A stretch of DNA of 64,000 nucleotides from Acidobacterium sp. (GTDB lineage: Bacteria; Acidobacteriota; Terriglobia; Terriglobales; Acidobacteriaceae): the NCBI GenBank assembly GCA_003166955.1, contig PMUI01000070.1, positions 62,001-126,000 of the forward strand, read 5' to 3'. Both the position numbers and the translations under genes were made by a program. Each line of letters begins with the position of its first letter. Within the stretch, counting starts at the first letter, position 1. Below, one piece after another: positions 3,912 to 25,658 of the stretch. The notes below the pieces were generated by a model that was not told where the DNA came from, ran no database searches, and worked only from the letters and a program-made list of their open reading frames with translations.

Positions 3912-4814
3912 ATGCAGACAATGACAGAAGCTCCGAAGCGGAGAGCGTTGGGTAAGGGGTTGGAATCGTTGCTGCCGCGGGTGCATGCGGTGGCGGAACC
4001 GGGGTCGGCGGAGAGCGGCGAGGGCAGGCCCCGGGAAATCCCGATCGGGGAGATTGAGCGGAGTCCGTTTCAGACGCGGACGCGGTTCGACACCGTGCAG
4101 ATGGCGGAGCTGGCAGCGTCCATTGCGGCAACGGGGGTGGTGCAGCCCATCGTCGTGCGGCCGCTGCCGCATGGGCACTATCAGCTGATTGCCGGCGAGC
4201 GGCGGTGGATGGCGTCGCAGGCGGCGGGGAAAGAGACGATCCCGGCGATTGTGCGGCAGGTTTCGGATGAGCAGGCGATGGAGATGACCATCGTCGAGAA
4301 CCTGCAGCGGACGGACCTGAACGCGATGGAGCAGGCGCGGGCGTACGAGCTGCTGGCGCGGGAGTTTCAGTTAACGCAGGAGCAGATGGCGAAGCGGACG
4401 GGGAAGGACCGCGCGTCGGTGGGGAACTTCCTGCGGCTGCTGAAGCTGCCAACGGAGGTGCAGGGCAAAGTCGAGGAAGGGGTACTGAGCTTTGGACATG
4501 CGCGGGCGCTGCTGCCGCTCGAGGATCCTCAGACGATTTTGAAGGCGGCGCAGAAGGTGACGGCGCTGTCGATGAGCGTCCGGCAGACGGAAAGCTACGT
4601 GCAGAAGATCCTGAGCCCCGGACCGAAGAAGCAGGATGGCGAACAAAAGGAGAATGTGCTCGACCCGAATGTGCGGGAAGTACAGGAGTTGCTGCAGCGG
4701 GCGCTGGGCCTGAAAGTGCGGATCGAGGACAAAAAGGGGCGCGGGCGGGTGATTATCGAGTACGCGCAGCTGGAGGAGTTTGACCGGCTGCTGGAGAGGC
4801 TGAGCAGGGAGTAG
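3912..4814 (+). CDS. parB: ParB/Spo0J chromosome-partitioning CTPase
   Basis: The 300-residue protein binds parS and spreads as a CTP-dependent clamp; ParA uses it as its cargo. It starts with the basic RRALGKGLESLL segment that stimulates ParA in this family. The N-terminal CTP-binding domain carries the GERRW motif near residue 96 and ENLQRTDLN near 128-136. A helix-turn-helix follows (LTQEQMAKRTGKDRASVGNFLRLL, near 155-178), and the C-terminal dimerisation domain ends in EFDRLLERL. An SD-like GAGGGTGAG sits just before the ATG. Several parS-like sites lie within 3 kb. The 3' end overlaps the convergent glycosyltransferase gene by 62 bp. Confidence 0.95.
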   Translation: MQTMTEAPKRRALGKGLESLLPRVHAVAEPGSAESGEGRPREIPIGEIERSPFQTRTRFDTVQMAELAASIAATGVVQPIVVRPLPHGHYQLIAGERRWMASQAAGKETIPAIVRQVSDEQAMEMTIVENLQRTDLNAMEQARAYELLAREFQLTQEQMAKRTGKDRASVGNFLRLLKLPTEVQGKVEEGVLSFGHARALLPLEDPQTILKAAQKVTALSMSVRQTESYVQKILSPGPKKQDGEQKENVLDPNVREVQELLQRALGLKVRIEDKKGRGRVIIEYAQLEEFDRLLERLSRE

Positions 4815-5994
4815 CCGCGAGCTGGGAGTTGGGAGCCGGTAGCCCGTAGCCGGTAGCGAAGAGGTCGCGGATCGCGGCGGCTGCATTCTTCATTGAAAAA
4901 TGAGACGCGAAGCAAGGAAAGGCTTGGGCGGCCATCGCTTGCTGCTCAGCCGACGGCATCTGGAGCCAGCGGCGGAAGAGGCGCTCGGTGCCGTCGAGGG
5001 TGTCGTCTTCGACGAGGCCGGCGCCGTCCTGGTGAATTTCGGGCCAGATGTTCACCTTATTGGTAATGAGGACGGGGCGGCCTGCGGCGAGGGCCTCGGC
5101 GACAACGATGCCGAAATTCTCCGAGTGCGAGGGAAGAATGAAGGCGTCGGCGGCTCTGAGGGCTCCCCATTTGAGATCGCCGCGGATCATACCGGGCCAG
5201 TGGACGCGGTCCGCGATGCCGCTTTCGGCGCAGAGCTTTTGAAAGCCGGCCTGGGAGCCTTCCTGATCGGGGCCGGCGACGACGAGATCGATGTCGGGAA
5301 ACTCGGCAGCGATTTTGGCGAAGGCGGCGACGAGCAGATCGCAGCCTTTTTTGGCGTGAAGGCGGGACATAAAGAGGAGGTAGCGGCGGCTGCGGAGGCG
5401 GGGAATGTGGCTCAGGAAGGCTTCGACCTGAGCGGCGGGATCGCCGTCGGGCTCGGTGATGCCGTAGGGGACGGGGAGACTGTTCCAGCGATTGGGATGG
5501 AAGCTGGTGATGGCGAGGTCGCGCTCGATGGCGGTGGTGAAGAGAACGGCGCGGGCATCGCGGAGGACGCGATATTGCAGGGGCCAATAGAGGATCTTCT
5601 TGATGTGTTTGAGGGGGTATCGGGTGTTGAACCAGGGGTCGAGGGCGCCGTGGGTGAAGACGGCGTAAGGCACGCCGGAGCGGCGGGCGGCGGAGTGGAC
5701 GGCGATGTCGGGGAACACCCAGATGCCGTTCATCACAATGCCGTCGTAACGGGGGGCGTTGCGGTGCAGCCAGGTCCATAAGCGGGGGGAGAGGCTGAAG
5801 CGGCCCAGCCAGCGCTGGCCGAGGGCGTGGACGGGCACGCCAATACCGGAGAGAAAGGGAGCGGAGGGGGCATCTTCGCAGACGATTTCGGCGTCAACGC
5901 CAATTTGGGGATAGGCTCGGGCCAGGTGGCGTACGGCCTCTGGAGGACCGCCCAGGGTAGGCGAAAGGCTTGCGATGACATGGAGGATTCTCAT
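4753..5994 (-). CDS. Glycosyltransferase family 4
   Basis: The 413-residue protein has the GT-B layout of GT4 enzymes. It begins MRILHVIASLSPTLGGP, has a mid-protein nucleotide-sugar region (LLFMSRLHAKKGCDLLVAAF), and carries the E-x7-E-type motif PSHSENFGIVVAEALAAGRPVL near residues 300-320. It likely transfers a sugar to a lipid- or polysaccharide-linked acceptor at the cytoplasmic face of the membrane. The donor and acceptor are unknown. The last ~45 residues (from about ATGYGLPAPNSQLA) are translated from intergenic repeat and from the antisense of the parB end, so the ancestral protein probably ended near residue 368. An asparagine synthetase typical of surface-glycan clusters is divergent from it. 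Confidence 0.88.
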   Translation of the reverse strand: MRILHVIASLSPTLGGPPEAVRHLARAYPQIGVDAEIVCEDAPSAPFLSGIGVPVHALGQRWLGRFSLSPRLWTWLHRNAPRYDGIVMNGIWVFPDIAVHSAARRSGVPYAVFTHGALDPWFNTRYPLKHIKKILYWPLQYRVLRDARAVLFTTAIERDLAITSFHPNRWNSLPVPYGITEPDGDPAAQVEAFLSHIPRLRSRRYLLFMSRLHAKKGCDLLVAAFAKIAAEFPDIDLVVAGPDQEGSQAGFQKLCAESGIADRVHWPGMIRGDLKWGALRAADAFILPSHSENFGIVVAEALAAGRPVLITNKVNIWPEIHQDGAGLVEDDTLDGTERLFRRWLQMPSAEQQAMAAQAFPCFASHFSMKNAAAAIRDLFATGYGLPAPNSQLAATPCSASPAAGQTPPAARTR

Positions 5995-8205: not shown

Positions 8206-8400
8206 TGCGGGATCGACGCTGTCCCGAACGGAATCTGTAACATCATCTGTGACAATTAGCAGCTGGGCGCCGGCTGGAGCCGCCGCCTTTGGAACGGGAC
8301 TGCGCTTCTCCGGCGCTGGGTAGTAGTATCAGGCCAACTGCAGACGCAGCTTGAATCTTCCCAGTCGCTCCGTCGGAGTCGATCGGGAGAGAAGCGAGGA

Positions 8401-11028
8401 TTGCGCTCCCTGGCGGCTCGCAATATACCGGACGGGCAACGCCCCCAGGATGAGAGCATCCGGCCGAGGGAGACGGCGGGACTTGCTCCGGAGGAAGTGG
8501 TTGCGGAGCGGTATGTTGTGAAACGGCGGCTGGGCGCGGGCGGGATGGGGGAAGCCTGGCTGGCCGAGGATCGGATCCTGCATCGGAAGCTGGTGCTGAA
8601 GCGGCTGACGGGGGCGGAGGCGGCGTCTTCGGATTCGCAAAATGCAATGCGCGCCGGGCATTTGCTGACTGAGGCGAAACGCGCAGCGGCCATCAGCAGT
8701 CCTCACATTTCACAGGTTTACGACGTGTGCAGCCACCGCGGCGAATGGCTGGTAGCGATGGAGTTCGTGGTGGGGCGCGATCTGCGAACGGTGCTGCGCG
8801 CGCCGCTGGAGGCTTCGACTTTCTTTTCGCTCGCGGTGCAGATTGCCGAGGCGATTGAGGCCGCGCACGCCAGCGGGATTCTGCACTGCGACATCAAGCC
8901 GGAAAACATCATGGTGACGGAGCAGGGCTTCGTCAAGGTGCTGGACTTTGGTTTGGCGCGGATGATGGCGAGTCAGGAGGGCACCAACGAGACGGTGAGC
9001 CTGACGGGAGCGGCGTTTGCAGGAACTCCGGGCTACATGGCGCCGGAGGTGCTGCGGGAGAACGAGCCGACGGAGCAGGCAGACATTTTTGCGCTGGGCG
9101 TGGTGCTGTATGAGATGGCGGGCGGGGCGGCTCCGTTCAAGGGCAAGAGCCTGGCGGACAGCGTGCAGATGACGCTGACGAATGAGCCTGCGGCGCTGGA
9201 TCTGAAGGCGCGGGGATTGCCGGCGGATTTGAATCGGGTGCTGAGGAAGGCGCTCGAGAAGCAGCCGGAGCGGCGGTACGCGACGGTCAGGGATTTGTCG
9301 ATCGACTTACGGAGTCTAACCCGGGATTCGGCGTCCGGCGGGGCACGGCAGCTGCCGTGGAATTATGGGGCGGTAGCCGGCGTGGCGGTGGTGGTGATTG
9401 CGGCGATTGCGGCGGGATGGATTTTGGTGCGGCGGGATGAGCGTCGAACACGACCGGCTCCGGCGGCTCCGAAGACGCGGCTGCTGGCGGTGCTTCCCTT
9501 CCACGTGATTCCCGAAGAGGCGCAACTGAGCGCGTACAGCGAGGGGCTGCGAGAGTCGATTACGTCGAGTCTGGCGCAAGAGGCGTCGTCGAATCGGATC
9601 GAAGTGCTGGCGGCGAGCGAGGTGCGGGCGCATGGGCTGAAGACTGCGGAGGAGGCGCACAAGGAGCTGGGCGCAGACCTCGCGATCGACGGGAGCTATC
9701 AGCAGTTCGGAAACCAGGTGCGGATTTCGTATGAGGTGAGCGACACGACGGGAAAGATCCTGCGTTCGGACACCGTGAACGGAACGCCCACGGATCCTTT
9801 CAAGCTCGAAGACGACGTGGTAAAGGGCGTACTCACGATGCTGAGCGTTTCAACCGCGGCGCCGGTTGGGGAAACCGCTGCGAGATTCGGGACGCGCGTG
9901 CCCGCGGCCTACGACGCGTACCTGAGAGGCGTGGGGTATCTGCGCGATTTTGATATCGCGGACAATTTGAAGAAGGCGGAGGAGAGCTTTACGGAGGCAA
10001 CGAAGGCCGATTCGGAATTTGCCGCAGCCTTTGCGGGCCTTGGAGAGACGCTGTGGGCGGAGTATCAGGCGAGCGCCGATGTAGGGAAGATTGAGCTGGC
10101 GCGGGCGAGCTGCGCGAAGGCTCTGCAACTGAATGCGCAAATCGCGGAGGCGCAGATTTGCCAGGGCACGATTGACGATGGGACGGGCCAGGCGAAGCAG
10201 GCGCAGCGGGAGTTTCAGGAGGCGCTGCGGCTGGATCCGCAGAGCGACAGCGCGCTGAACGGGCTGGCGCGGACCTACGAGGAGATGGAGCAGCCGGACC
10301 AGGCCGAGAAGGTGTACCAGCAGGCGATTGAGGCGCGGCCGTATTACTGGGCGAATTATTTTGCGCTGGCCAATTTTCTGCTGAGGCGCGCGGAATACGC
10401 GCAGGCGGCGACGGTGCTGCAGCAGGCGGTCGAGAAGTTTCCGGCGAACAGCGTTCTGGCGCGGCGGCTGGGAGTGGTGTATTTGCTCGAAGGGAAATTC
10501 GATGAGGCAGCGGCAAGCTTCGAGGACGCGATCCGCGGGAGCCCGCACGCCGAGGCGTATATGGATCTCGGGCAGGTGTATCTGCACCAGAAGAAATGGG
10601 GACCGGCGATAGCGGCGCTCGAGTCCGCGGAGCGGATGAAGCCGAATTCATTTGCGATCGAGGCCGATCTGGCGGATGCGTATGCGTGGGGCGGGCAGGC
10701 GGCGAAGGCGGAGGCTCGATACAAGGATGCGCTGGCGATGAGCAGCGACCGGTTGCGCGTGAATGCCCAGGACCTGGACGCGACGATGGTGGCGGCGTAC
10801 TGCTCGGCGGCCCTCGACCAGCGCGGGGATGCTCTGGGCTTTCTCAACGCCGCGTTGCAGCATGCGCCGGAGGATTCCGAGGTGAACTACTACGCGGCGC
10901 GGGTGTATGCGCGGCTGGGCGACGAGGGTGCGGCGCGAGCCTGGGCGGCGAAGGCGATCGCGCACGGGTATTCAAAGGCGGATATCGAGAGCGCGCCGGA
11001 TATGAAGGGCGTCGCCCCAGCGAAGTGA
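8401..11028 (+). CDS. Membrane Ser/Thr protein kinase with TPR tail
   Basis: The protein has about 875 residues. A Hanks-type kinase domain (about 38-300) contains the P-loop GAGGMGE, catalytic loop HCDIKPEN, DFG and an APE motif (GYMAPEVL). The catalytic-loop residue before Asp is Cys where RD kinases have Arg, so regulation by activation-loop phosphorylation may differ. A single membrane helix (VAGVAVVVIAAIAAGWILV, about 325-343) is followed by a TolB/FlgO-like segment (LLAVLPFHVIPEEAQL) and then roughly eight TPR-like repeats (about 500-860), presumably periplasmic. The start is uncertain: no ATG precedes the kinase domain, and TTG at 8401 has a weak GGGAGAG upstream. A PP2C-type phosphatase lies nearby on the other strand. 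Confidence 0.9.
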   Translation: MRSLAARNIPDGQRPQDESIRPRETAGLAPEEVVAERYVVKRRLGAGGMGEAWLAEDRILHRKLVLKRLTGAEAASSDSQNAMRAGHLLTEAKRAAAISSPHISQVYDVCSHRGEWLVAMEFVVGRDLRTVLRAPLEASTFFSLAVQIAEAIEAAHASGILHCDIKPENIMVTEQGFVKVLDFGLARMMASQEGTNETVSLTGAAFAGTPGYMAPEVLRENEPTEQADIFALGVVLYEMAGGAAPFKGKSLADSVQMTLTNEPAALDLKARGLPADLNRVLRKALEKQPERRYATVRDLSIDLRSLTRDSASGGARQLPWNYGAVAGVAVVVIAAIAAGWILVRRDERRTRPAPAAPKTRLLAVLPFHVIPEEAQLSAYSEGLRESITSSLAQEASSNRIEVLAASEVRAHGLKTAEEAHKELGADLAIDGSYQQFGNQVRISYEVSDTTGKILRSDTVNGTPTDPFKLEDDVVKGVLTMLSVSTAAPVGETAARFGTRVPAAYDAYLRGVGYLRDFDIADNLKKAEESFTEATKADSEFAAAFAGLGETLWAEYQASADVGKIELARASCAKALQLNAQIAEAQICQGTIDDGTGQAKQAQREFQEALRLDPQSDSALNGLARTYEEMEQPDQAEKVYQQAIEARPYYWANYFALANFLLRRAEYAQAATVLQQAVEKFPANSVLARRLGVVYLLEGKFDEAAASFEDAIRGSPHAEAYMDLGQVYLHQKKWGPAIAALESAERMKPNSFAIEADLADAYAWGGQAAKAEARYKDALAMSSDRLRVNAQDLDATMVAAYCSAALDQRGDALGFLNAALQHAPEDSEVNYYAARVYARLGDEGAARAWAAKAIAHGYSKADIESAPDMKGVAPAK

Positions 11029-15111: not shown

Positions 15112-15529
15112 TCAGAACAGGGAACAGGCAATAGGAACAGGGAATAGCGCTCGGCGTTCAGAGCACGGAGCACAGAGCACAGAGCACAGAGCACAGAAAA
15201 GCGAAATCGCAGCGACGCCACTTCGCAAGGCGTTCGGCTGATGCTGAACGCCGCGACTCAATTTCCAGGGAAAAAGCAGGGTTGGGCACGATTCTTCGCG
15301 CAAGAGCGGGGGCGAAGCTTCGCGAGGCATTGGCCGGCGTGAGTTGATGTTCCGGATTGGAACCGGGACGGGACGATCCACCGGGTTGCTGTGCGCGCCG
15401 CATCATCGCGCGCGGATTCCCGCCGATGAGGGAGGCATCCGGGAAGGAAATCGCGTGAGAACTGCGCATCCGCAGCGGGAGGAACGTGCGCTGGGTGTCG
15501 ATGAGCAACGACAGGGCGAGGGAGGCGCG
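15112..15529. other. Gap ahead of the chemosensory operon, with GAGCACA repeats
   Basis: The first ~90 bp are low-complexity: an A-GGGAACAG-type word is repeated, then GAGCACA or a close variant occurs about five times in tandem (15160-15196). The rest (15200-15529) holds no supportable gene and should contain the operon promoter, although I could not recognise it. An open frame extends upstream of the next gene's ATG to 15344 but reads as arginine-rich shadow. Confidence 0.55.
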
Positions 15530-17254
15530 ATGACAGCGGCAGCGGAGGAGGCAGGGGCGCCGCGCGTTCTCAGGGGTCTGGAAGACGACCTTGGAGCGGT
15601 ACTGGCTGAGTCGGAGAGGGAAATGGGGAAGCTGGGCAGCGACTTCGAAGGTCTGGCCCAGGAGACCAGCGCGATCCTCGAGACGGCGCGAACGATCGTC
15701 GGCTGCGCGGAGAGCGAGCGAATGGCGTCGGTGCTGCCGCGGGTCGCGAAGCTGGGAACGGTGGCCAGGGCGTTCATCGGGGAGCGGCTGGCAGCCACGG
15801 CGGGAATTCTGGACACGGTGATGGCGGAGGCGGCGCAACTGGAGCGGCTGGAGCAGCTGACGCGGGGACAGAAGGCCATCGTGAAGGAAACCGGGATGCT
15901 GCGGGTGCTGACCAACATCGAAGTGGCGCGGCTGGGCGAGGTGGGGACGGGGTTTCAGTATCTGGCGGTGGAGCTGGACGACTTTTCGCGTGCGGTAGCT
16001 CGCAGCACCAACGAACTGACCAGTCTCACGGAGGAGCGGCGCAAGACGATCGAGGAAACGCGGCGGACGCTGGCGCTGGAATTGCCGCAGATGCGGGAGG
16101 GCTTCGCGCGCATGGAGGGGAGCCTCGAGAACGCGCAGAGCCTGGTGGATGCCACCCTGGCCCAGATGTACCAGACACCGGCGCGGTTCAGGGGCTGCGT
16201 GGAAGAGGTGGCGGGCAAGATTGCGGGGGTGGTGGCGGCGATTCAGGCGCATGACATCACGCGCCAGCAGATCGAGCACGTGCAGGAGGCGCTGGGAACG
16301 ATTGCGGCCGGCCTCGACGGCGGAGATGGCGCGGCCGGCGGGGCGATGTGGGCGGGCCTGGCGATCCAGAGCTATCAGCTGCGCAACGTACAGCAGACGA
16401 TCGAGGGATGGATGACGCAGATCAGAACGTGCCTCGAGGGGATCGCACAGATCGCCGGCGCGGAGCTTTTGAACCTGAGCCCGATGATCATGAGCCAGGA
16501 GAGAGTCCTGACGGCGCAGCTGACGCGTATCGAGGGGCTGGAGGAGGAGTGCGAGGCGGAGGATGCGAAGGTGCAGGCGTCGTTTGCCGGCATCTCGGGG
16601 CTGATGCAGCTGGTGAGCGAGCATTTGGTGCGTTCGAAGGCAGTGCGGGACCGGCTGCAGCTGCTGATGTTCAACTCGATCGTGGAGGCGAGCCACCTGG
16701 GCACGCAGGCGGACGGGATCCTGGAGATTTCGAAGTCGATCAAGCGCATTTCGGCGGCCTGGGCGGAGATCACCACGCAATCGGAAGCGGCAACCCAGGA
16801 AATCGGGACGCTGGTGGAGCAGAGCGGTTCGACGCTGGAAGCATTTTCGGAGGGCAGCTACGCGGGCCTGCGGGAGGCGCGGAACGAAACCGAAGAAGGC
16901 CTCGCGATCCTGCGGGAGACAGCGCACGTCGCGGACACGCAGGGACGGGACATTGAGGCGACGGTGCGGGCGCTGCAGGCACGGATCGCGGAGGTTGGCC
17001 GGGCAGCGGACCGGCTGGAGTCGTGCTTTGGGCGGCTGGGCACGGCGCTCAGGAGCATCGAGGTGGCCCGGGAGGAACTGGAGAAGGACAACCCAGCGGG
17101 GAGCGGCGACTACGACCGAGCGGCGGTGGAGGAGCGGTTTTCCGCAAGCTACACCACGGAGATGGAGCGCGCCGTGCTGCGGGCGGCCCTCGAAGGAGGA
17201 CCCTTGCCGGAAGCGGAGCAGAGCTTTGCCGGCAACAGCGTGGAACTTTTCTGA
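15530..17254 (+). CDS. Soluble methyl-accepting chemotaxis-like protein
   Basis: The 574-residue, almost entirely helical protein has no membrane segment and no recognised sensor domain. It begins at an ATG preceded by GGAGG four bases upstream. Near residues 380-400 the segment LQLLMFNSIVEASHLGTQADG aligns by eye with the MCP signalling tip ([14 protein letters not shown]), and long flanking coiled coils resemble methylation helices. It is therefore a divergent cytoplasmic chemoreceptor or receptor-like scaffold at the head of the operon. The degenerate tip raises doubt over CheA/CheW binding. An alternative reading is a structural coiled-coil partner of the array. Confidence 0.75.
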   Translation: MTAAAEEAGAPRVLRGLEDDLGAVLAESEREMGKLGSDFEGLAQETSAILETARTIVGCAESERMASVLPRVAKLGTVARAFIGERLAATAGILDTVMAEAAQLERLEQLTRGQKAIVKETGMLRVLTNIEVARLGEVGTGFQYLAVELDDFSRAVARSTNELTSLTEERRKTIEETRRTLALELPQMREGFARMEGSLENAQSLVDATLAQMYQTPARFRGCVEEVAGKIAGVVAAIQAHDITRQQIEHVQEALGTIAAGLDGGDGAAGGAMWAGLAIQSYQLRNVQQTIEGWMTQIRTCLEGIAQIAGAELLNLSPMIMSQERVLTAQLTRIEGLEEECEAEDAKVQASFAGISGLMQLVSEHLVRSKAVRDRLQLLMFNSIVEASHLGTQADGILEISKSIKRISAAWAEITTQSEAATQEIGTLVEQSGSTLEAFSEGSYAGLREARNETEEGLAILRETAHVADTQGRDIEATVRALQARIAEVGRAADRLESCFGRLGTALRSIEVAREELEKDNPAGSGDYDRAAVEERFSASYTTEMERAVLRAALEGGPLPEAEQSFAGNSVELF

Positions 17255-17443: not shown

Positions 17444-17806
17444 ATGAAACAGGTGCTGACAGTGGACGATTCGGCGAGCGTGCGGCAGATGGTGAGCTTC
17501 ACGCTGCGCAAGGCCGGCTACGGGGTGATGGAGGCGGTCGACGGGAAGCAGGGACTGGAAAAGGCGGGAGGGCAGAAGTTTGACCTGGTAATCACCGATC
17601 TGAACATGCCGGTGATGGACGGGATCGAGATGACGGCGGGGATGCGGAAGCTGCCTGGGTATTCGTTTACGCCCATTTTGATGCTGACGACCGAGTCGCA
17701 GCCGGAAAAGAAGGATGCGGGGCGCAAGGCGGGAACGACGGGCTGGATCGTGAAGCCGTTCCAGGCCGAGCAGCTGATCGCGGTCGTGCAGAAGCTGGTC
17801 CGCTAA
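17444..17806 (+). CDS. cheY: CheY-type single-domain response regulator
   Basis: The 120-residue receiver domain has the acidic pair DD at residues 8-9, phospho-acceptor Asp in DLVITDLNMPVMDG (about residue 52), Thr in LMLTTESQ (about 82) and Lys in WIVKPF (about 104). It has no output domain, so it acts by binding a partner. It would accept phosphate from CheA of the same operon. A good ribosome binding site (AAGGAGA) precedes the ATG. Confidence 0.93.
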   Translation: MKQVLTVDDSASVRQMVSFTLRKAGYGVMEAVDGKQGLEKAGGQKFDLVITDLNMPVMDGIEMTAGMRKLPGYSFTPILMLTTESQPEKKDAGRKAGTTGWIVKPFQAEQLIAVVQKLVR

Positions 17807-17828: not shown

Positions 17829-18158
17829 GTGCCGGTTACGTTCGATCGAAGAGCAGAGCCAGGAACGATTCGGCTGGAGGGGGAGATCGATATCGCCCTC
17901 GCCGCCACGCTGAAGGAAGTTTTGCTGGAGGCGCTGGCGTCGATGGGTGAGGTTCGGATCTCGCTCGAGACAGCGACGGGCATGGATGCGACGGCGGTGC
18001 AGCTGCTGTGGGCGGCGGAACGGGAGGCGAAAGCCTCCGGCGTGGTCCTGGCGCTGGAAGGGCCGGTTCCGGAGAAACTGCGGACCACGCTGCGCGAGGC
18101 GGGATTCGAGCGATTCCCATTCGCAGACGAGCGAGCAGCGGGGAGCGAGGTGCGATAG
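17829..18158 (+). CDS. STAS-domain protein of the chemosensory operon
   Basis: The 109-residue protein from a GTG start is a single STAS domain: GTIRLEGEIDIALAATLKEVLLEAL, then VRISLETATGMDATAVQLLWAAEREAK, where anti-anti-sigma proteins normally carry the phosphorylatable Ser. Here the corresponding positions read GMDATAV, with Thr as the only candidate. STAS proteins are often found beside CheY/CheA in environmental chemosensory operons; their role there is unclear. Its stop overlaps the GTG of the next gene by one base, indicating translational coupling. Confidence 0.85.
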   Translation: MPVTFDRRAEPGTIRLEGEIDIALAATLKEVLLEALASMGEVRISLETATGMDATAVQLLWAAEREAKASGVVLALEGPVPEKLRTTLREAGFERFPFADERAAGSEVR

Positions 18159-18679
18159 TGGCAAAGGACGGCAGCATCGACCAGTTCCGGCGCGGATTCC
18201 AGGAAGAAGCCAGGGAGCTGCTGGTGGAGCTCGAGATGGTGCTGCTGCAGCTGAACGAGCGGCGCGAGGATGGCGAGCTGGTGGGGCGGGTGTTCCGGGC
18301 GCTGCACACGATCAAGGGCTCGGGCTCGATGTTCGGCTTCGATGAGCTGGCGGCGTTCGCGCACAAGCTGGAAAACGCATTTGACGAGGTGCGGAAGGGG
18401 CGTCTGGCGGTGACGCCGGAACTGGTGGACCTGACGCTGTCGGCGCTCGATCAGATTCGCGAGATGGTCGAAGAGGGCGAAGGGGAGACGGCGGAGGACG
18501 GGGGAGCCCGCGCGGAGATTCTCGCAAACTACGCGCGGTCACGGGAAGCGCTGAGGAAACGGACGCCGGCGCAGCCAGGAAAGCGGCAAAGCCGGAGCCG
18601 GAAAAGGGAGCCGGAGCGGTGCCAGAAAAGAGCGCGGAACGGGCGTGGTGGATCCGCTTTGCACCCGGCCCCGAGCTGA
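18158..18679 (+). CDS. cheA: CheA N-terminal phosphotransfer (Hpt/P1) part, frame-separated
   Basis: From GTG the frame encodes an Hpt domain with the phospho-accepting His at about residue 50 in FRALHTIKGSGSMFG, then helices through LANYARSREALRKR, and finally a basic stretch ending at 18679. The remaining CheA domains continue in the -1 frame, overlapping from 18619 or earlier. Between about 18541 and 18620 the other frame reads as a normal Ala/Pro/Glu linker (AEETDAGAARKAAKPEPEKG). This fits a one-base loss in a single cheA gene or a -1 frameshift. Two separately translated proteins, as in split CheA systems, are also possible. Confidence 0.85.
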   Translation: MAKDGSIDQFRRGFQEEARELLVELEMVLLQLNERREDGELVGRVFRALHTIKGSGSMFGFDELAAFAHKLENAFDEVRKGRLAVTPELVDLTLSALDQIREMVEEGEGETAEDGGARAEILANYARSREALRKRTPAQPGKRQSRSRKREPERCQKRARNGRGGSALHPAPS

Positions 18680-20367
18680 TGCGCCATGGTGCGGACCCCC
18701 TGCTCCTGATCCGGGAGCTGAGCGGAATGGGACGGTTGACGGCGCAGGCGTCGACGGCGGAGATACCGGCGCTGGCCAGCCTGGAACCGGAGCGGTGCTA
18801 CGTGCGCTGGGAGATGGTGCTGACGACCGCCGCGAGCGAGAACGCGATTCGGGACGTTTTCATCTTTGTCGAGGACACCTGCGAGCTGGAAATTGAGCCC
18901 GGGGAGGCAGAGGGATCGAGTGCGGCTTCGACCGGAGGGCGTGCGGACGAGAAGGAGGAACCCGCCACGCAGACGCCGGAGGTGGTGTGCGCCGGCGACC
19001 TGATTGCGAAGGGACTTGAGGAGAAGCGACGGGCCGCGGGACGGCGGGCCAGCGATCAGCCGGAGACGACGACGAGCCTGCGCGTTCCTGCGGCGCGGCT
19101 GGACCAGCTGGTGGATCTGGTGGGAGAGATGGTGACGGTGCAGGCGCGGCTGAGCGAGATTGCGGCACGGTCGGAAGAGAGTGAAGTGCTGGCGGTCTCG
19201 GAGGAGATCGAGCGGCTGACGTCGGCGCTGCGGGAGAACTCGATGACGCTGCGCATGCTGCCGATTCGAGCGACCTTCGAGCGCTTCCGGCGGCTGGTGC
19301 ACGATCTGGCGCGCGACCTCGGCAAGGATGTGGAACTGACGATCGAGGGCGCGGAAACCGAACTGGACAAGACGGTGATCGATCAGCTGGGCGACCCGCT
19401 GATGCACCTGATCCGCAACAGCATGGATCACGGGATCGAGGCGCCGGAGCGGCGTGCGGATCAGGGTAAACGGCCGACGGCAACGATTCATCTGGCGGCG
19501 CGGCATTCCGGCGCCAGCGTGCTGATCACGGTGTCGGATGACGGCGCCGGCATCGATGGGGAGGCGGTGCGCAGCCGCGCCATCGAACGCGGGCTGACCA
19601 CGGCGGATGCGCAACTGAGCGACACGGAAGTTTTCTCGTTCATCTTCGAGCCGGGATTCTCGACCGCGAAACAGGTGACGGATGTTTCGGGCCGCGGCGT
19701 GGGCATGGACGTGGTGCGGCAGCGGGTGGAGAGCCTGCGGGGAAGCATCGAGGTAACGAGCAGCCGCGGGGCGGGCACCACGGTGACCCTGCGCCTGCCG
19801 CTGACGCTGGCCATCATCGACGGGCTGCTGGTGACGGTGGGCGATGCGTTCTTCGTGCTGCCGCTGGCGTCGACGCTGGAGTGCATCGAGCTGACGCGCG
19901 GAGACGTCGAGCAGGCCAATGGAAAGCACATGGCGAATGTGCGGGGGGAGATCGTTCCGTACATTCGGCTGCGGCAGTACTTCGCAGTGGGCACAGTGCC
20001 ACCGGACCGCGAACAGATCATGGTCGTGGAGTGCGAAGAGGGGCGTTGCGGACTGGTGGTGGATCAGGTGCTGGGGGATTGTCAGACGGTAATCCGGAAC
20101 CTGGGACGGCTGTACCGGCACGTGCAGGTTGTCTCGGGGGCGACGATTCTCGGCAACGGGAAGGTGGCGCTGATTCTGGACCCGCAGCGGCTGGTGCAGG
20201 AGGCGATTCGGACAAAGATGCAGCGGGAGCGCGGGCGGGCTCAGGGCCTGAGTCAGAACGGGTCGCTCGAGCAGGAGAACGGCCGCCCGCGGGACGGCAC
20301 GTTCACGAAGGGAGCCGATACGATCGGCGCTGGAGCAATGGCCAGCGCGAGTCATTCACTCAACTAA
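18619..20367 (+). CDS. cheA: CheA histidine kinase core (dimerisation, ATPase, CheW-like domains)
   Basis: The frame encodes 582 residues starting with a domain commonly found between P1 and the kinase core (WWIRFAPGPELMRHGADPLLLIREL). Dimerisation helices follow (SLRVPAARLDQLVDLVGEMV, about 155-215). The ATPase domain has N box LIRNSMDHGIE, G1 DDGAGID and GRGVGMDVV (about 255-395), and a CheW-like regulatory domain spans about 400-535. The GTG at 18619 has GGGAG eight bases upstream, so independent translation is plausible. Without the preceding Hpt frame this product lacks its own phospho-acceptor His. Its C-terminal ~50 residues are an unstructured tail. Confidence 0.9.
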   Translation: MPEKSAERAWWIRFAPGPELMRHGADPLLLIRELSGMGRLTAQASTAEIPALASLEPERCYVRWEMVLTTAASENAIRDVFIFVEDTCELEIEPGEAEGSSAASTGGRADEKEEPATQTPEVVCAGDLIAKGLEEKRRAAGRRASDQPETTTSLRVPAARLDQLVDLVGEMVTVQARLSEIAARSEESEVLAVSEEIERLTSALRENSMTLRMLPIRATFERFRRLVHDLARDLGKDVELTIEGAETELDKTVIDQLGDPLMHLIRNSMDHGIEAPERRADQGKRPTATIHLAARHSGASVLITVSDDGAGIDGEAVRSRAIERGLTTADAQLSDTEVFSFIFEPGFSTAKQVTDVSGRGVGMDVVRQRVESLRGSIEVTSSRGAGTTVTLRLPLTLAIIDGLLVTVGDAFFVLPLASTLECIELTRGDVEQANGKHMANVRGEIVPYIRLRQYFAVGTVPPDREQIMVVECEEGRCGLVVDQVLGDCQTVIRNLGRLYRHVQVVSGATILGNGKVALILDPQRLVQEAIRTKMQRERGRAQGLSQNGSLEQENGRPRDGTFTKGADTIGAGAMASASHSLN

Positions 20368-20388: not shown

Positions 20389-22611
20389 ATGCCGGTTACA
20401 GGAATGCGGGAAAGTCAGAAGGCCAACGGCCACCACAAGGCGAACGGGCACGCGGTTCTCCAACCGGGGAATGACGCGAACGGGCATGCAAGCGATGAGG
20501 CACTGCTGGTGTCGCAGGAGATTCTGCGGCTGGTGGAAGCTTCGAAGGAGGGCCGGCTCGGGGAGCGCGGCCGGCCGGACCAGTTCACCGGGATGTATCG
20601 GGAGATGGTGGAAGGCATCAACGAGATGCTGGACGCAATCCTGCTGCCGATCGGCGAAGGGAATCGCATCCTGGCACAGATTTCCTCGGGCAAGATCGAC
20701 GAGCTGATCGTCGCCATCTACAAAGGTGATCACGAAAAGATGAAAATCGCCGTCAACAACGTTGCCGTGGTGACGCAGGCATTGCAGAAGGAGCTGGCGC
20801 GGCTGATCGAGGCTTCCAAAGAGGGCCAGCTATCGGATCGCGGCAAGCCGGAGCAGTTCCAGGGCGCCTACGCCGAGATCGTTCGGGGCGTGAATACGAT
20901 GCTGGACGCGATTCTGCTGCCCATCGGCGAGGGGAACAGGATTTTGGCGCAGATTTCGTCAGGCCGAATCGACGAGCTGATTGCGCAGACTTACAAAGGC
21001 GATCACGAAAAGATGAAGGTCGCCATCAACAACGTGGCCGGAGTGCTGCAGGGATTGCAGAAAGAGCTGGTGCGGCTGACGGATGCGTCGAAGGAAGGCC
21101 AGCTTTCGGATCGTGGCAAGCCGGAGCAGTTCCAGGGCGCCTACGCCGAGATCGTTCGGGGCGTCAACGCGATGCTCGACGCGATTCTGTTGCCCATCGG
21201 GGAAGGAAACCGCATCCTGGGGCAGATCTCGTCGGGCAAGATCGACGAGCTGATCGCGGCCACCTACAAGGGTGACCACGAAAAGATGAAGCAGGCGATC
21301 AACAACGTCGGCACCGTGGTCCAGGGTCTGCACAAGGAACTGGATCGGCTGATCGAAGCTTCGAAGGCGGGCCAGCTGTCGGAGCGGGGCAAGGCGGACA
21401 AATTCCATGGCGCGTACGCCGAGATCGTGCGGGGCGTCAACGCCATGCTCGATGCCGTGATCGGACCCCTCAACGTATCGGCACGATACGTGGATGACAT
21501 CAGCCGAGGCGATATTCCGGCGCGGATCACCGACAACTATAACGGGGACTTCAACACCATCAAGAACAACCTGAACACACTGATCGACGCGATGAGCGAG
21601 ATCACGTCGGCGGCCGAACAGATCGCCAACGGCAACCTGACGGTGGTGCTGAAGGAGCGCTCGGCTGAAGACAAGCTGATGCAGGCGCTGGCGGCGATGG
21701 TGGCGGGGCTGACCCGGACGGTGGGTGAGATTCGCACGATTGCGGGCGAAGTGGCATCGGCCAGCCAGTCGATCTCGACGGCGTCGGTGCAGGTGTCGAA
21801 GGGGGCAAGCGCGCAGGCGGCGGCGGCCGAGGAGGCCTCCTCGTCGATGGAGGAGATGGTTTCCAACATCAAGCAGAACGCCGATAACGCGCAACAGACG
21901 GACAAGATTGCGAACAAGTCCGCAAAAGACGCGCAGGAGAGCGGCAAGAGCGTGCTCGAAGCAGTAGCCGCGATGAAGGAGATCGCCAACAAGATCTCGA
22001 TCATCGAGGAGATAGCGCGGCAGACCAACCTGCTGGCGCTGAACGCCGCGATTGAAGCGGCGCGCGCTGGGGAACACGGCAAGGGGTTCGCGGTGGTGGC
22101 GGCCGAAGTGCGCAAGCTGGCGGAGCGGAGCCAGAAGGCGGCTGCGGAGATCAACCAGCTTTCGGGCACAACGCTGCGGGTCTCGGAGAAATCCGGAGAA
22201 CAGCTGGAGAAGCTGGTGCCGGACATCCAGAGGACGGCGGAACTGGTGCAGGAGATCACCGCGGCCAGCAAGGAGCAGGACACAGGCGCGGAGCAGATCA
22301 ACAAGGCGCTGCAGCAGCTGGAGCAAGTGATCCAGCAGAACGCATCGGCGGCGGAGGAGATGGCTTCGACGACCGAAGAGCTGACCGGGCAGTCCGAGCA
22401 GCTGGTGAGCGCGCTGGGATTCTTCCAGACCGGGGACGAGGGCGAAGCGCTGCGGCGGAGCGGGAAGCCTCCGCGGCCAGCGCACGCGGCGCCGGTACGG
22501 ACGGCGAAGCCAGCGGCGCAGGCGGCGGCGAAAGCCGGGGCCCGGGGCGGCGTGAAGCTGCGGCTGGCTGAGAAGCACGACGAACTGGACGGCGAGTTCG
22601 AGCGCTACTGA
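20389..22611 (+). CDS. Soluble poly-HAMP methyl-accepting chemotaxis protein
   Basis: The 740-residue protein lacks membrane segments. After a ~44-residue His/Asn/Gly-rich N terminus come four tandem ~91-residue units rich in HAMP-like heptads, each with versions of [41 protein letters not shown] and YKGDHEKMK. The fourth is divergent. The cytoplasmic MCP signalling domain follows, with the hairpin tip [40 protein letters not shown] (written here as two motifs joined by the usual turn) near residues 545-585. A tail ends [10 protein letters not shown], not a canonical CheR tether. It should form the receptor of a cytoplasmic array with CheA and CheW. The ligand is unknown. Confidence 0.93.
20521..21612 (+). 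repeat. Four in-frame 273-bp tandem repeats encoding HAMP-like units
   Basis: Units begin at 20521, 20794, 21067 and 21340, exactly 273 bp (91 codons) apart. Units 1 to 3 are very similar at the protein level and keep long stretches of DNA identity. Unit 4 diverges in its second half as it leads into the signalling domain. Recombination between units could change the number of HAMP-like modules in frame. Confidence 0.9.
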
Positions 22612-22683
22612 CCGGGACGGCGCGGGCTGTCGGCGGAGAAGTCCGCGCCGCGTCCAGCAAGGGAAGAGAGGAGATTGAGAGAG

Positions 22684-23196
22684 ATGAGCGTAAGCGAAAT
22701 TACAGAGACCCGGCAGTACCTGACCTTCAAACTTGGCAACGAAATCTTCGCGACGGATGTGGCAAAGGTGCGGGAGGTGCTGGACCTTACGACGATCACG
22801 GCAGTGCCGCGGACACCGGAATTCATGAGCGGGGTGATCAACCTGCGGGGCAGCGTAGTGCCGGTGGTGGATCTGCGGCTGTGTTTTGAGATGTCGAAGA
22901 CGGTGAGCACGCGGAACACCTGCATCGTGGTCGTGGAAGTGCTGCTGGAGAACGAGCCCACGGTGATCGGCGCACTGGCCGATTCGGTGGAGGAGGTGAT
23001 CGATCTGGAGCCGGATCAGATCCAGCCGGCGCCGCGGATCGGGACGCACATCCGGACCGATTTCATTCGGGGCATGGGCAAGCGGGATACGCAGTTCATC
23101 ATGATCCTGGACATCGATCGCGTGTTCTCGGCCGATGAACTGGCAGCGGTCCGCGGGCAGGATGCGGCCAGGCCGGCTGCGGAGGCGGCAACTTAG
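22684..23196 (+). CDS. cheW: CheW chemotaxis coupling protein
   Basis: The 170-residue protein is a single CheW domain: QYLTFKLGNEIFATDVAKVREV at the N terminus, TPEFMSGVINLRGSVVPVVDLR (about 40-61) and the C-terminal strand QFIMILDIDRVFS. It links the soluble receptors to CheA. The ATG at 22684 is preferred over a TTG nine bases upstream because AGGAG lies ~10 bases before it and the TTG would have no room for a ribosome binding site. A 20-residue Ala/Arg tail follows the domain. Confidence 0.93.
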   Translation: MSVSEITETRQYLTFKLGNEIFATDVAKVREVLDLTTITAVPRTPEFMSGVINLRGSVVPVVDLRLCFEMSKTVSTRNTCIVVVEVLLENEPTVIGALADSVEEVIDLEPDQIQPAPRIGTHIRTDFIRGMGKRDTQFIMILDIDRVFSADELAAVRGQDAARPAAEAAT

Positions 23197-23245
23197 CGGA
23201 GAGGGGGCGCGACCATGCGCCCCGTCATCGCTGGGAGGCGACGCC

Positions 23246-24094
23246 ATGAGCGCCCATGAGGAAACGCTTTCGAGCCGGGATTTCGCGCGGCTGTGTACGT
23301 TCGTCTATTCGGAGGCTGGCATTTGCCTTGGGCCCGAGAAGAAGACGATGCTCGAGGGCCGGCTGAAACGGCGGCTGCGGGAACTGAACATCAATTCCTA
23401 CAAGGTTTACTGCGAATACCTGTTCGGGCAGGAGGGGCTGAGAGAAGAAAAGGTCCGGTTCATCGATGTGGTGACGACGAACAAGACCGATTTTTTTCGC
23501 GAACCAAAGCACTTCGACTATCTGACGCAACAAGCGTTGCCGGAGATGACGGCTCGATCAGGCGGACAGCCGGTGCTGGTGTGGAGCGCGGGTTGTTCGT
23601 CGGGAGAGGAGCCGTACACGCTGGCGATGGTGCTGAGCGAATATGCGGAGGCCCATCCGGGATTCCGATTCCGGATTCTGGCGACGGATATCTCGACGAA
23701 GGTGCTGGCCAAAGCAGAGATGGGAATCTACACGGGCGATGTTGTGGAGCCGGTGCCTCCTCTGATGCGGCGGAAATATCTGATGCGCAGCCGCGAGCGC
23801 GATGGAGATCGGGTGCGCATGGTGCCGGAGCTGCGCAAGCTGTTGGAGTTCCGGCGGCTGAATTTTATGGACACCGATTACGGGGTGGAAGAAAAGGCGG
23901 ATGCGATCTTCTGCCGGAACGTGATCATCTATTTCGACCGGCCGACGCAGGAGCGGATTCTCGGGAAATTGTCGAGTTATCTGAAGCCGGGCGGATACCT
24001 GTTTGTGGGACATTCCGAGACGCTGCACGACATGAATCTTCCGCTGGAGGCGGTAGGACCGGCGTTGTACAGGAGGCTCCATGGGCGAACCTGA
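23246..24094 (+). CDS. cheR: CheR receptor methyltransferase
   Basis: The 282-residue protein methylates glutamates in MCPs using S-adenosylmethionine. The N-terminal all-helical domain spans about 1-75. The catalytic domain has VWSAGCSSGEEPYTLAM (SAM-binding), ILATDISTKVLAKA, FCRNVIIYFD and GYLFVGHSE. GGGAGG lies seven bases upstream of the ATG. A longer upstream reading is arginine-rich shadow. Its end overlaps cheD by 14 bp. Confidence 0.95.
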   Translation: MSAHEETLSSRDFARLCTFVYSEAGICLGPEKKTMLEGRLKRRLRELNINSYKVYCEYLFGQEGLREEKVRFIDVVTTNKTDFFREPKHFDYLTQQALPEMTARSGGQPVLVWSAGCSSGEEPYTLAMVLSEYAEAHPGFRFRILATDISTKVLAKAEMGIYTGDVVEPVPPLMRRKYLMRSRERDGDRVRMVPELRKLLEFRRLNFMDTDYGVEEKADAIFCRNVIIYFDRPTQERILGKLSSYLKPGGYLFVGHSETLHDMNLPLEAVGPALYRRLHGRT

Positions 24095-24572
24095 CGCGTG
24101 CCGCGAGGTCTATGTGCAGCCGGGGGAGTCGCACCTGGTGCATGGGCCGGCAGTTCTGCGCACGGTGCTGGGGTCGTGCGTCGGCGTGACGTTTTGGCAT
24201 CAGGGGCTGCAGGCTGGAGCGCTTTGCCATCCGATGCTTCCGCAACACCCGGCTGCGGCGCGGGGAAAGATCAGCCTTGAAGCGGCGCGGCGGTACGTGG
24301 ATTTCGCAATTCGCGATCTGGCGAAGCAATTCGACGCGCTGGGTGCGAGGCGGGGGGAGATTCAGGTGAAGCTGTTCGGAGGCGCAGATGTGCTGGCGGC
24401 ACAGGAGCGTCAATTGCGTCCGACGATTGGCAGGATGAACCGGGAAATGGCGCTGGAGATTCTGAGGGCCGAGGGATTCGATGTAGCGGCGTCGCGATTG
24501 GGAGGGCCGGTGGGATTCCACATCGACTTTTACACCACCACCGGGGAAGTTCTTTTACGGCGGCTGGGCTAG
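24081..24572 (+). CDS. cheD: CheD receptor glutamine deamidase
   Basis: The 163-residue protein carries the CheD catalytic Cys in VLGSCVGVTFW (near residue 33) and catalytic His in ALCHPMLP (near 50), followed by KLFGGADVL and HIDFYTTTGEV. CheD deamidates glutamines in chemoreceptors and can be controlled by CheY-like proteins (family knowledge). It overlaps the end of cheR, and cheB starts 21 bp downstream, so the three receptor-modification genes are co-transcribed. Confidence 0.93.
   Translation: MGEPDACREVYVQPGESHLVHGPAVLRTVLGSCVGVTFWHQGLQAGALCHPMLPQHPAAARGKISLEAARRYVDFAIRDLAKQFDALGARRGEIQVKLFGGADVLAAQERQLRPTIGRMNREMALEILRAEGFDVAASRLGGPVGFHIDFYTTTGEVLLRRLG

Positions 24573-25658
<1,086 letters not shown>

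Follow-up and report, generated by a model that had tools for sequence, protein, structure and literature searches.

A cheA gene interrupted between its Hpt and kinase parts in an acidobacterial chemotaxis cluster

A chemotaxis cluster of an Acidobacterium sp. genome contains a cheA gene that is spread over two overlapping reading frames, one carrying the Hpt part and the other the kinase core. The locus lies in a 64,000-nucleotide stretch of contig PMUI01000070.1 (the window, to which all coordinates refer unless stated otherwise), and it raises the question of whether the two frames belong to two proteins, to one protein that is fused by ribosomal frameshifting, or to one gene that lacks a base, either in the cell or in the assembled sequence. 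The comparisons described below make it very probable that a single ancestral, one-frame cheA lost one base, and that the loss is private to this genome or to its assembled sequence.

Frames and parts of the interrupted gene

The cluster is encoded on the + strand in the order CheY-STAS-CheA-MCP-CheW-CheR-CheD-CheB. Upstream of cheA are a CheY-like response regulator (17444-17806; Pfam Response_reg, E = 3.9e-26) and a STAS-domain protein (17829-18158; STAS_2, E = 2.8e-12), whose stop codon shares one base with the GTG of the Hpt ORF at 18158. Downstream, the cluster continues with a chemoreceptor that has HAMP repeats and an MCP signalling domain (20389-22611; HAMP_2 in four stretches and MCPsignal), followed by CheW (22675-23196; CheW, E = 3.8e-37), the CheR ORF (23135-24094; CheR, E = 2.3e-60), CheD (24081-24572; CheD, E = 1.2e-20) and CheB (24594-25658; CheB_methylest, E = 1.5e-67).

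The cheA gene itself consists of two overlapping frames, with the kinase frame at -1 relative to the Hpt frame. The Hpt ORF (18158-18679, + strand, 173 aa) begins with the GTG at 18158 and ends with a stop codon at 18677-18679, and its residues 11-102 match the Pfam Hpt domain (E = 2.1e-18); the mechanically called ORF begins earlier, at 18008. Its translation is homologous to CheA up to about 18526, and is then followed by an out-of-frame tail of about 50 residues. The kinase ORF (18619-20367, + strand, 582 aa) also starts with GTG and contains dimerisation, ATPase and CheW-like domains (H-kinase_dim, E = 8.3e-12; HATPase_c, E = 2.2e-19; CheW, E = 1.2e-27). It is part of a longer open stretch of the same frame, from 18385 to 20367, that has no further stop inside, and the Hpt and kinase frames overlap from 18385 to 18679, or almost 300 bases.

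Within this overlap, positions 18531-18618 form a linker in the kinase frame, upstream of the first start codon of that frame, and a GGGAG motif at 18606-18610, a possible ribosome-binding site, stands 8 bases before the GTG at 18619. The break leaves each of the four Pfam domains whole and falls between the Hpt and dimerisation domains, in an interval (18464-19071, by Pfam coordinates) that takes up about 27% of the gene. The frames and coordinates are exactly those of the initial annotation, which had described a cheA split between frames offset by -1, with GGGAG ahead of the GTG at 18619. As sequenced, translation from the GTG at 18158 would yield an Hpt protein that ends in a nonsense tail, and the GTG at 18619 could serve as the start of a separate kinase lacking the P1 domain.

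The site of the frame change and its absence from relatives

Homology places the frame change at about 18524-18530, both by the tblastn junction and by DNA alignment. In particular, the CheA protein of G006, a genome of the same genus, matches one frame up to 18526 and the other frame from 18526 onwards (tblastn; position 80526 of contig C61), and a six-sequence DNA alignment contains one single-base gap in the window at this junction, just after a well conserved stretch. Two adjacent ORFs on the same strand hence match consecutive parts of one protein in relatives; because both halves match one continuous G006 protein, joined at 18526, the split pattern is more than chance.

Codon usage is less exact than homology at this site. 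A codon-usage frame walk of the window switches near 18551, and the kinase frame is favoured from 18619 on; across 18531-18618 the two frames are not separated, with log-odds of 3.3 for the Hpt frame and 4.8 for the kinase frame. It had been proposed that the linker is sensible in the kinase frame well upstream of its GTG, over 18541-18618. Homology bears this out for the whole of that stretch and, by tblastn and alignment, puts the frame change itself slightly upstream of it, although codon usage leaves the frame of 18531-18618 undecided.

All 21 of the closest distinct relatives examined (kinase identity of 55% or more) carry Hpt and kinase in one frame, and in 19 of these 21 loci the 520 bases ahead of the kinase match are free of N. 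Because every one of these relatives has the gene in one frame, the locus is better read as one ancestral cheA with a private loss than as a conserved split. The initial annotation had named a comparison with relatives as a means of choosing between a one-base loss and a real split, and its first suggestion, one ancestral gene with a one-base loss, is the one favoured here, both by the 21 unbroken relatives (one of them with an N gap) and by the single-base gap in the alignment. According to this reading, the ancestral cheA would have encoded Hpt, linker, kinase and CheW-like parts in a single frame, and this genome, or its assembly, would have lost one base at about 18524-18530, as none of the 21 closest relatives has.

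The close orthologues come from a search of the same genus and family, which found some match in 55 of 61 genomes, the window's own counted, and from which 30 loci were taken. Orthologues with at least 59% identity are present in six of the 11 other same-genus genomes (G001, G002, G004, G005, G006 and G011) and in the family genome G016, and Hpt and kinase share one frame in all seven. The G005 gene has a 2-base N gap inside Hpt and an intact linker; in G011 a 2-base N gap lies in the Hpt-kinase linker itself, and its frame across the linker is therefore not independent evidence. Further, a search of a genome collection, of which the best 80 loci were considered, has acidobacterial titles for all of its top 14 loci (L058-L071), and each is in frame. 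A survey of the class found matches in 262 of 399 genomes at an E-value of 1e-60; 30 loci were fetched, including the window itself, and in the 29 others Hpt lies inside the kinase ORF. In a plasmid collection, 127 records have partial CheA-type matches, and none of them covers 80% of the query.

Overall, 138 loci (L009-L037, L058-L137 and L239-L267) were tallied, of which 133 are distinct; the tally omits the window's own locus and the rest of those from its genome (L001-L008 and L238). The Hpt match could start as much as 60 bases ahead of the ORF limit. Among the 133 distinct loci, a mixture of orthologues and more distant CheA, 127 have Hpt and kinase in one frame, one has a frame break (L072), one has an in-frame stop (L109), and four have no Hpt that was found, their kinase matches starting 0 to 342 bases from the locus end; the tally undercounts breaks elsewhere in the gene, because the loci were picked by their kinase half.

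The two interrupted loci of the tally are separate sporadic cases. In the cheA of L072 (Deltaproteobacteria UBA5756), the frame is broken between the Hpt and kinase parts, next to nine C in a row (816-824), a candidate for slippage or sequencing error. In the cheA of L109 (Rhodocyclaceae), an in-frame stop stands between Hpt and kinase, shortly before 6001, and both sides are in the same frame.

Sequence error or recent mutation

The evidence leaves a sequence error and a real mutation nearly even. The consequences of the two differ: if the sequence is in error, the cell makes an ordinary CheA, and a real absence of the base would mean that normal CheA is lost or functions in trans only. A real, recent mutation that involves no recoding has about an even chance of being the case and, within it, a split that keeps some function would account for a minor share.

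The degree of constraint on the two halves bears on the age of the break. Pairwise dN/dS ratios were obtained from Nei-Gojobori counts with our own script, at synonymous sites that are fairly saturated. Between the window and G006, dN/dS is 0.130 for Hpt (118 codons) and 0.225 for the kinase (579 codons); the corresponding values are 0.126 and 0.155 for the intact pair G006 and G002, and 0.120 and 0.202 for the intact pair G006 and G011, and against G006 both halves of the window's gene are within the range found between intact relatives. The kinase dN to G006 is also alike for the window (0.136) and for G011 (0.143). With PMPH (L059) as the outgroup, the kinase dN of the window is 0.215 and that of G006 is 0.201; the corresponding values for the shorter Hpt are 0.235 and 0.176. 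One of the eight window pairs for Hpt, the one with PMPH, has a dN/dS of 0.263, which is greater than the maximum of 0.223 among intact pairs. Taken together, these sequence comparisons suggest no clear decay, with a slight Hpt excess that 118 codons cannot establish. Because both halves look ordinarily constrained, the break would be either recent or an error.

An assembly or consensus error, with the real cheA intact and in one frame, is plausible at somewhat below an even chance. The genome is a draft of 142 contigs, and the records of the same-genus genomes G011 and G006 (L058 and L060) are metagenome-assembled genomes; the break is common to none of the 21 closest relatives, there is no clear sign of relaxed constraint, and a second cheA of this genome, on contig C76, is likewise broken by one base. 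Elsewhere, some interrupted genes have proved to be sequencing errors, the available part of one report giving 28 of 73 for the finished genome of M. smegmatis after resequencing (PMC1852416). Such an error would, however, have occurred outside any long homopolymer, as the run at the junction has 3 bases and the longest run in 18380-18679 has 5, and in a genome with no convincing frame break outside its cheA genes in the approximately 100 kb compared with G006.

The latter result comes from a comparison that set about 670 kb of this genome against about 1.14 Mb of sequence from G006 and 0.3 Mb from other relatives, in which a stricter coding filter covered 46,124 bases without cheA and the wider comparison includes cheA. 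Against G006, three candidate places were found in 103,055 bases, namely cheA, C61 at 89.3 kb and C77 at 78.1 kb. The C61 place, which has overlapping reverse-strand matches, was rejected as a broken gene as judged from the match listing; the C77 place was rejected after its frames were read. Against the other relatives, cheA, the C76 cheA and C88 at 14.35 kb were flagged in 40,701 bases, the last of which seems to come from a break in L052, the reference. In the reverse direction, there were four candidate places in 107,476 bases of G006 and one in 89,037 bases of the other relatives. With cheA as the sole convincing break in about 103 kb compared with G006, frameshifts are not a general feature of the assembly.

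A genuine, recent loss-of-function mutation, which would make this cheA copy a young pseudogene and leave its role to the cell's other CheA proteins, is possible, though doubtful. Two further cheA genes have no stop in their match (an open frame of 1251 aa on C85 and one of 792 aa on C88), and a gene of the FHIPEP (FlhA) family is unbroken in this genome. Moreover, the frame is broken in two of the four large cheA genes, which, as a post hoc remark, is above the expectation from the low rate elsewhere and amounts to a small oddity of this lineage's chemotaxis or of the assembly. Against this reading, there are no additional lesions, dN/dS is ordinary, and the break sits between domains.

The second cheA is a different gene (G000 contig C76, about 4305-4341; L051), with a one-base frame change in its ATPase domain, whereas the frame of its G002 relative (L053) is unbroken. 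C76 is no unbiased sample, because it was fetched for holding a broken cheA that a CheA search had found. On contig C73 of G005 (L052; about 4500-5660 and 8224-8962), a cheA changes frame within the kinase, and a gene that reads as CheR-like in translation seems broken too.

Frameshifting and two-protein readings

Ribosomal frameshifting by -1 in the overlap, whether as an accidental rescue or as a programmed event, could restore a fused CheA from the sequence as it stands; we consider it highly improbable. The overlap contains eight in-phase Z_ZZN tetramers, including A_AAC exactly at the junction (18526-18529), where a -1 slip would join the homologous parts seamlessly, but no X_XXY_YYZ heptamer in phase with the Hpt frame occurs there. 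The tetramers reported to shift in E. coli are A_AAG, U_UUY, C_CCY and A_AAA, with U_UUA, U_UUG, C_CCA and C_CCG being weaker, according to the available part of PMC4066793; A_AAC is outside the shift-prone set given there, and the RNA that follows it folds no better than shuffled sequences (z-scores of -0.69 for 70 nt and 0.83 for 40 nt).

A possible weak -1 slip site is present 54 bases downstream of the junction, where A_AAG (18580-18583, + strand) is in phase with the Hpt frame and is of the type that the same source describes as the most shift-prone in E. coli. A slip at this position would join the two halves through a linker of which 18 codons are altered. The 70 bases after A_AAG fold somewhat better than shuffles (z-score of -1.92; 8 of 200 as good), but the nearest 40 nt do not (z-score of -0.19). 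These fold tests covered structures without pseudoknots, and tetramers without a pseudoknot are, on average, only marginally above background in the part of PMC4066793 available.

The relatives also argue against recoding. The frame change is shared by none of the 21 closest, and their unbroken frame leaves nothing to rescue, which excludes a conserved recoding signal; an accidental frameshift rescue is weakly possible. The initial annotation's mention of frameshifting accordingly found little support, despite the A_AAG in phase downstream. As far as it was searched, the literature on programmed frameshifting in CheA and on split CheA contains no report of the present case, and CheA is absent from the main text of PMC3711429.

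A genuine split that keeps some function, with a free Hpt protein phosphorylated in trans by a P1-less kinase made from the GTG at 18619, is an unlikely reading. The GGGAG 8 bases ahead of this GTG and the four intact Pfam domains are compatible with it, and the break between the Hpt and dimerisation domains is where a tolerated split would lie. Related arrangements are known to occur, as bipartite CheA and as CheA3/CheA4 (available parts of PMC10782961 and PMC3591291). On the other side, the kinase start is 58 bases upstream of the Hpt stop, which would require initiation inside a translated region, about 50 residues of arbitrary sequence would trail the Hpt protein, and a split is seen in none of the 21 closest relatives. 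The suggestion of a truly split CheA hence finds no support in conservation; because the break falls between Pfam domains, it keeps some room as a private, recent and tolerated event.

A stronger form of this reading, in which a very recent and real fission of cheA has already given an established, efficient pair of Hpt and kinase proteins, is quite unlikely. In it, a linker deletion close beside a GTG that has a ribosome-binding-like GGGAG would have split a one-piece CheA, and the birth of a bipartite CheA would have been caught in a single mutational step. More generally, should the base prove to be absent and both proteins be produced, the locus would be a natural example of a one-step origin of a bipartite CheA.

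Hpt was present in 98.3% of sequences in the available part of a survey of CheA architectures. The canonical one-piece CheA has the same four Pfam domains in the same order, all of which the G006 orthologue (L009) carries in one protein, whereas the present gene is interrupted between the Hpt and dimerisation domains. In the bipartite CheA of PMC10782961, as far as its available text describes it, Hpt is a separate gene of the same operon and the liberated Hpt is described as functional; the Hpt and kinase ORFs are likewise adjacent and on the same strand. Here, in contrast, the ORFs overlap out of frame, a one-base change having made them out of a single gene, and they are unsplit in all 21 of the closest relatives.

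CheA3 and CheA4 of Rhodobacter (Cereibacter) sphaeroides, which work as a split kinase according to the available part of PMC3591291, similarly combine a P1-less kinase with a P1-bearing partner (PMC3591291 and PMC10782961, each in part). CheA3 also binds the array through its P5 (CheW-like) domain in the former account, and the Hpt piece here is without one; the available text of the latter reports CheA3/CheA4 in twenty other genomes of the family, whereas the present split is private. Because bipartite CheA and CheA3/CheA4 have already been described, a real split at this locus would add one more case of a known arrangement, of interest mainly for its apparent youth.

The locus also resembles the interrupted coding sequences of PMC1852416. 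In both cases one gene appears as two adjacent ORFs, each matching part of an intact orthologue, and no difference was found from the description in the available part of that report. For annotation, the locus is best recorded as one frame-interrupted cheA, rather than as a pair of genes or a novel split architecture.

Two other features of the cluster were observed. At its head, positions 15344-17254 encode a receptor-like protein whose MCPsignal match stays below threshold (E = 4.1e-07; 30.4 bits, with the cut-off at 34.6). Between 22675 and 24094, the CheW and CheR ORFs overlap in different frames, and the true CheR start is probably downstream of 23135; the two are in the same frame in G006 and G011, with a single ORF of 431 aa spanning CheW and CheR in G006, and the frame relation of CheW and CheR differs among the relatives that were looked at.
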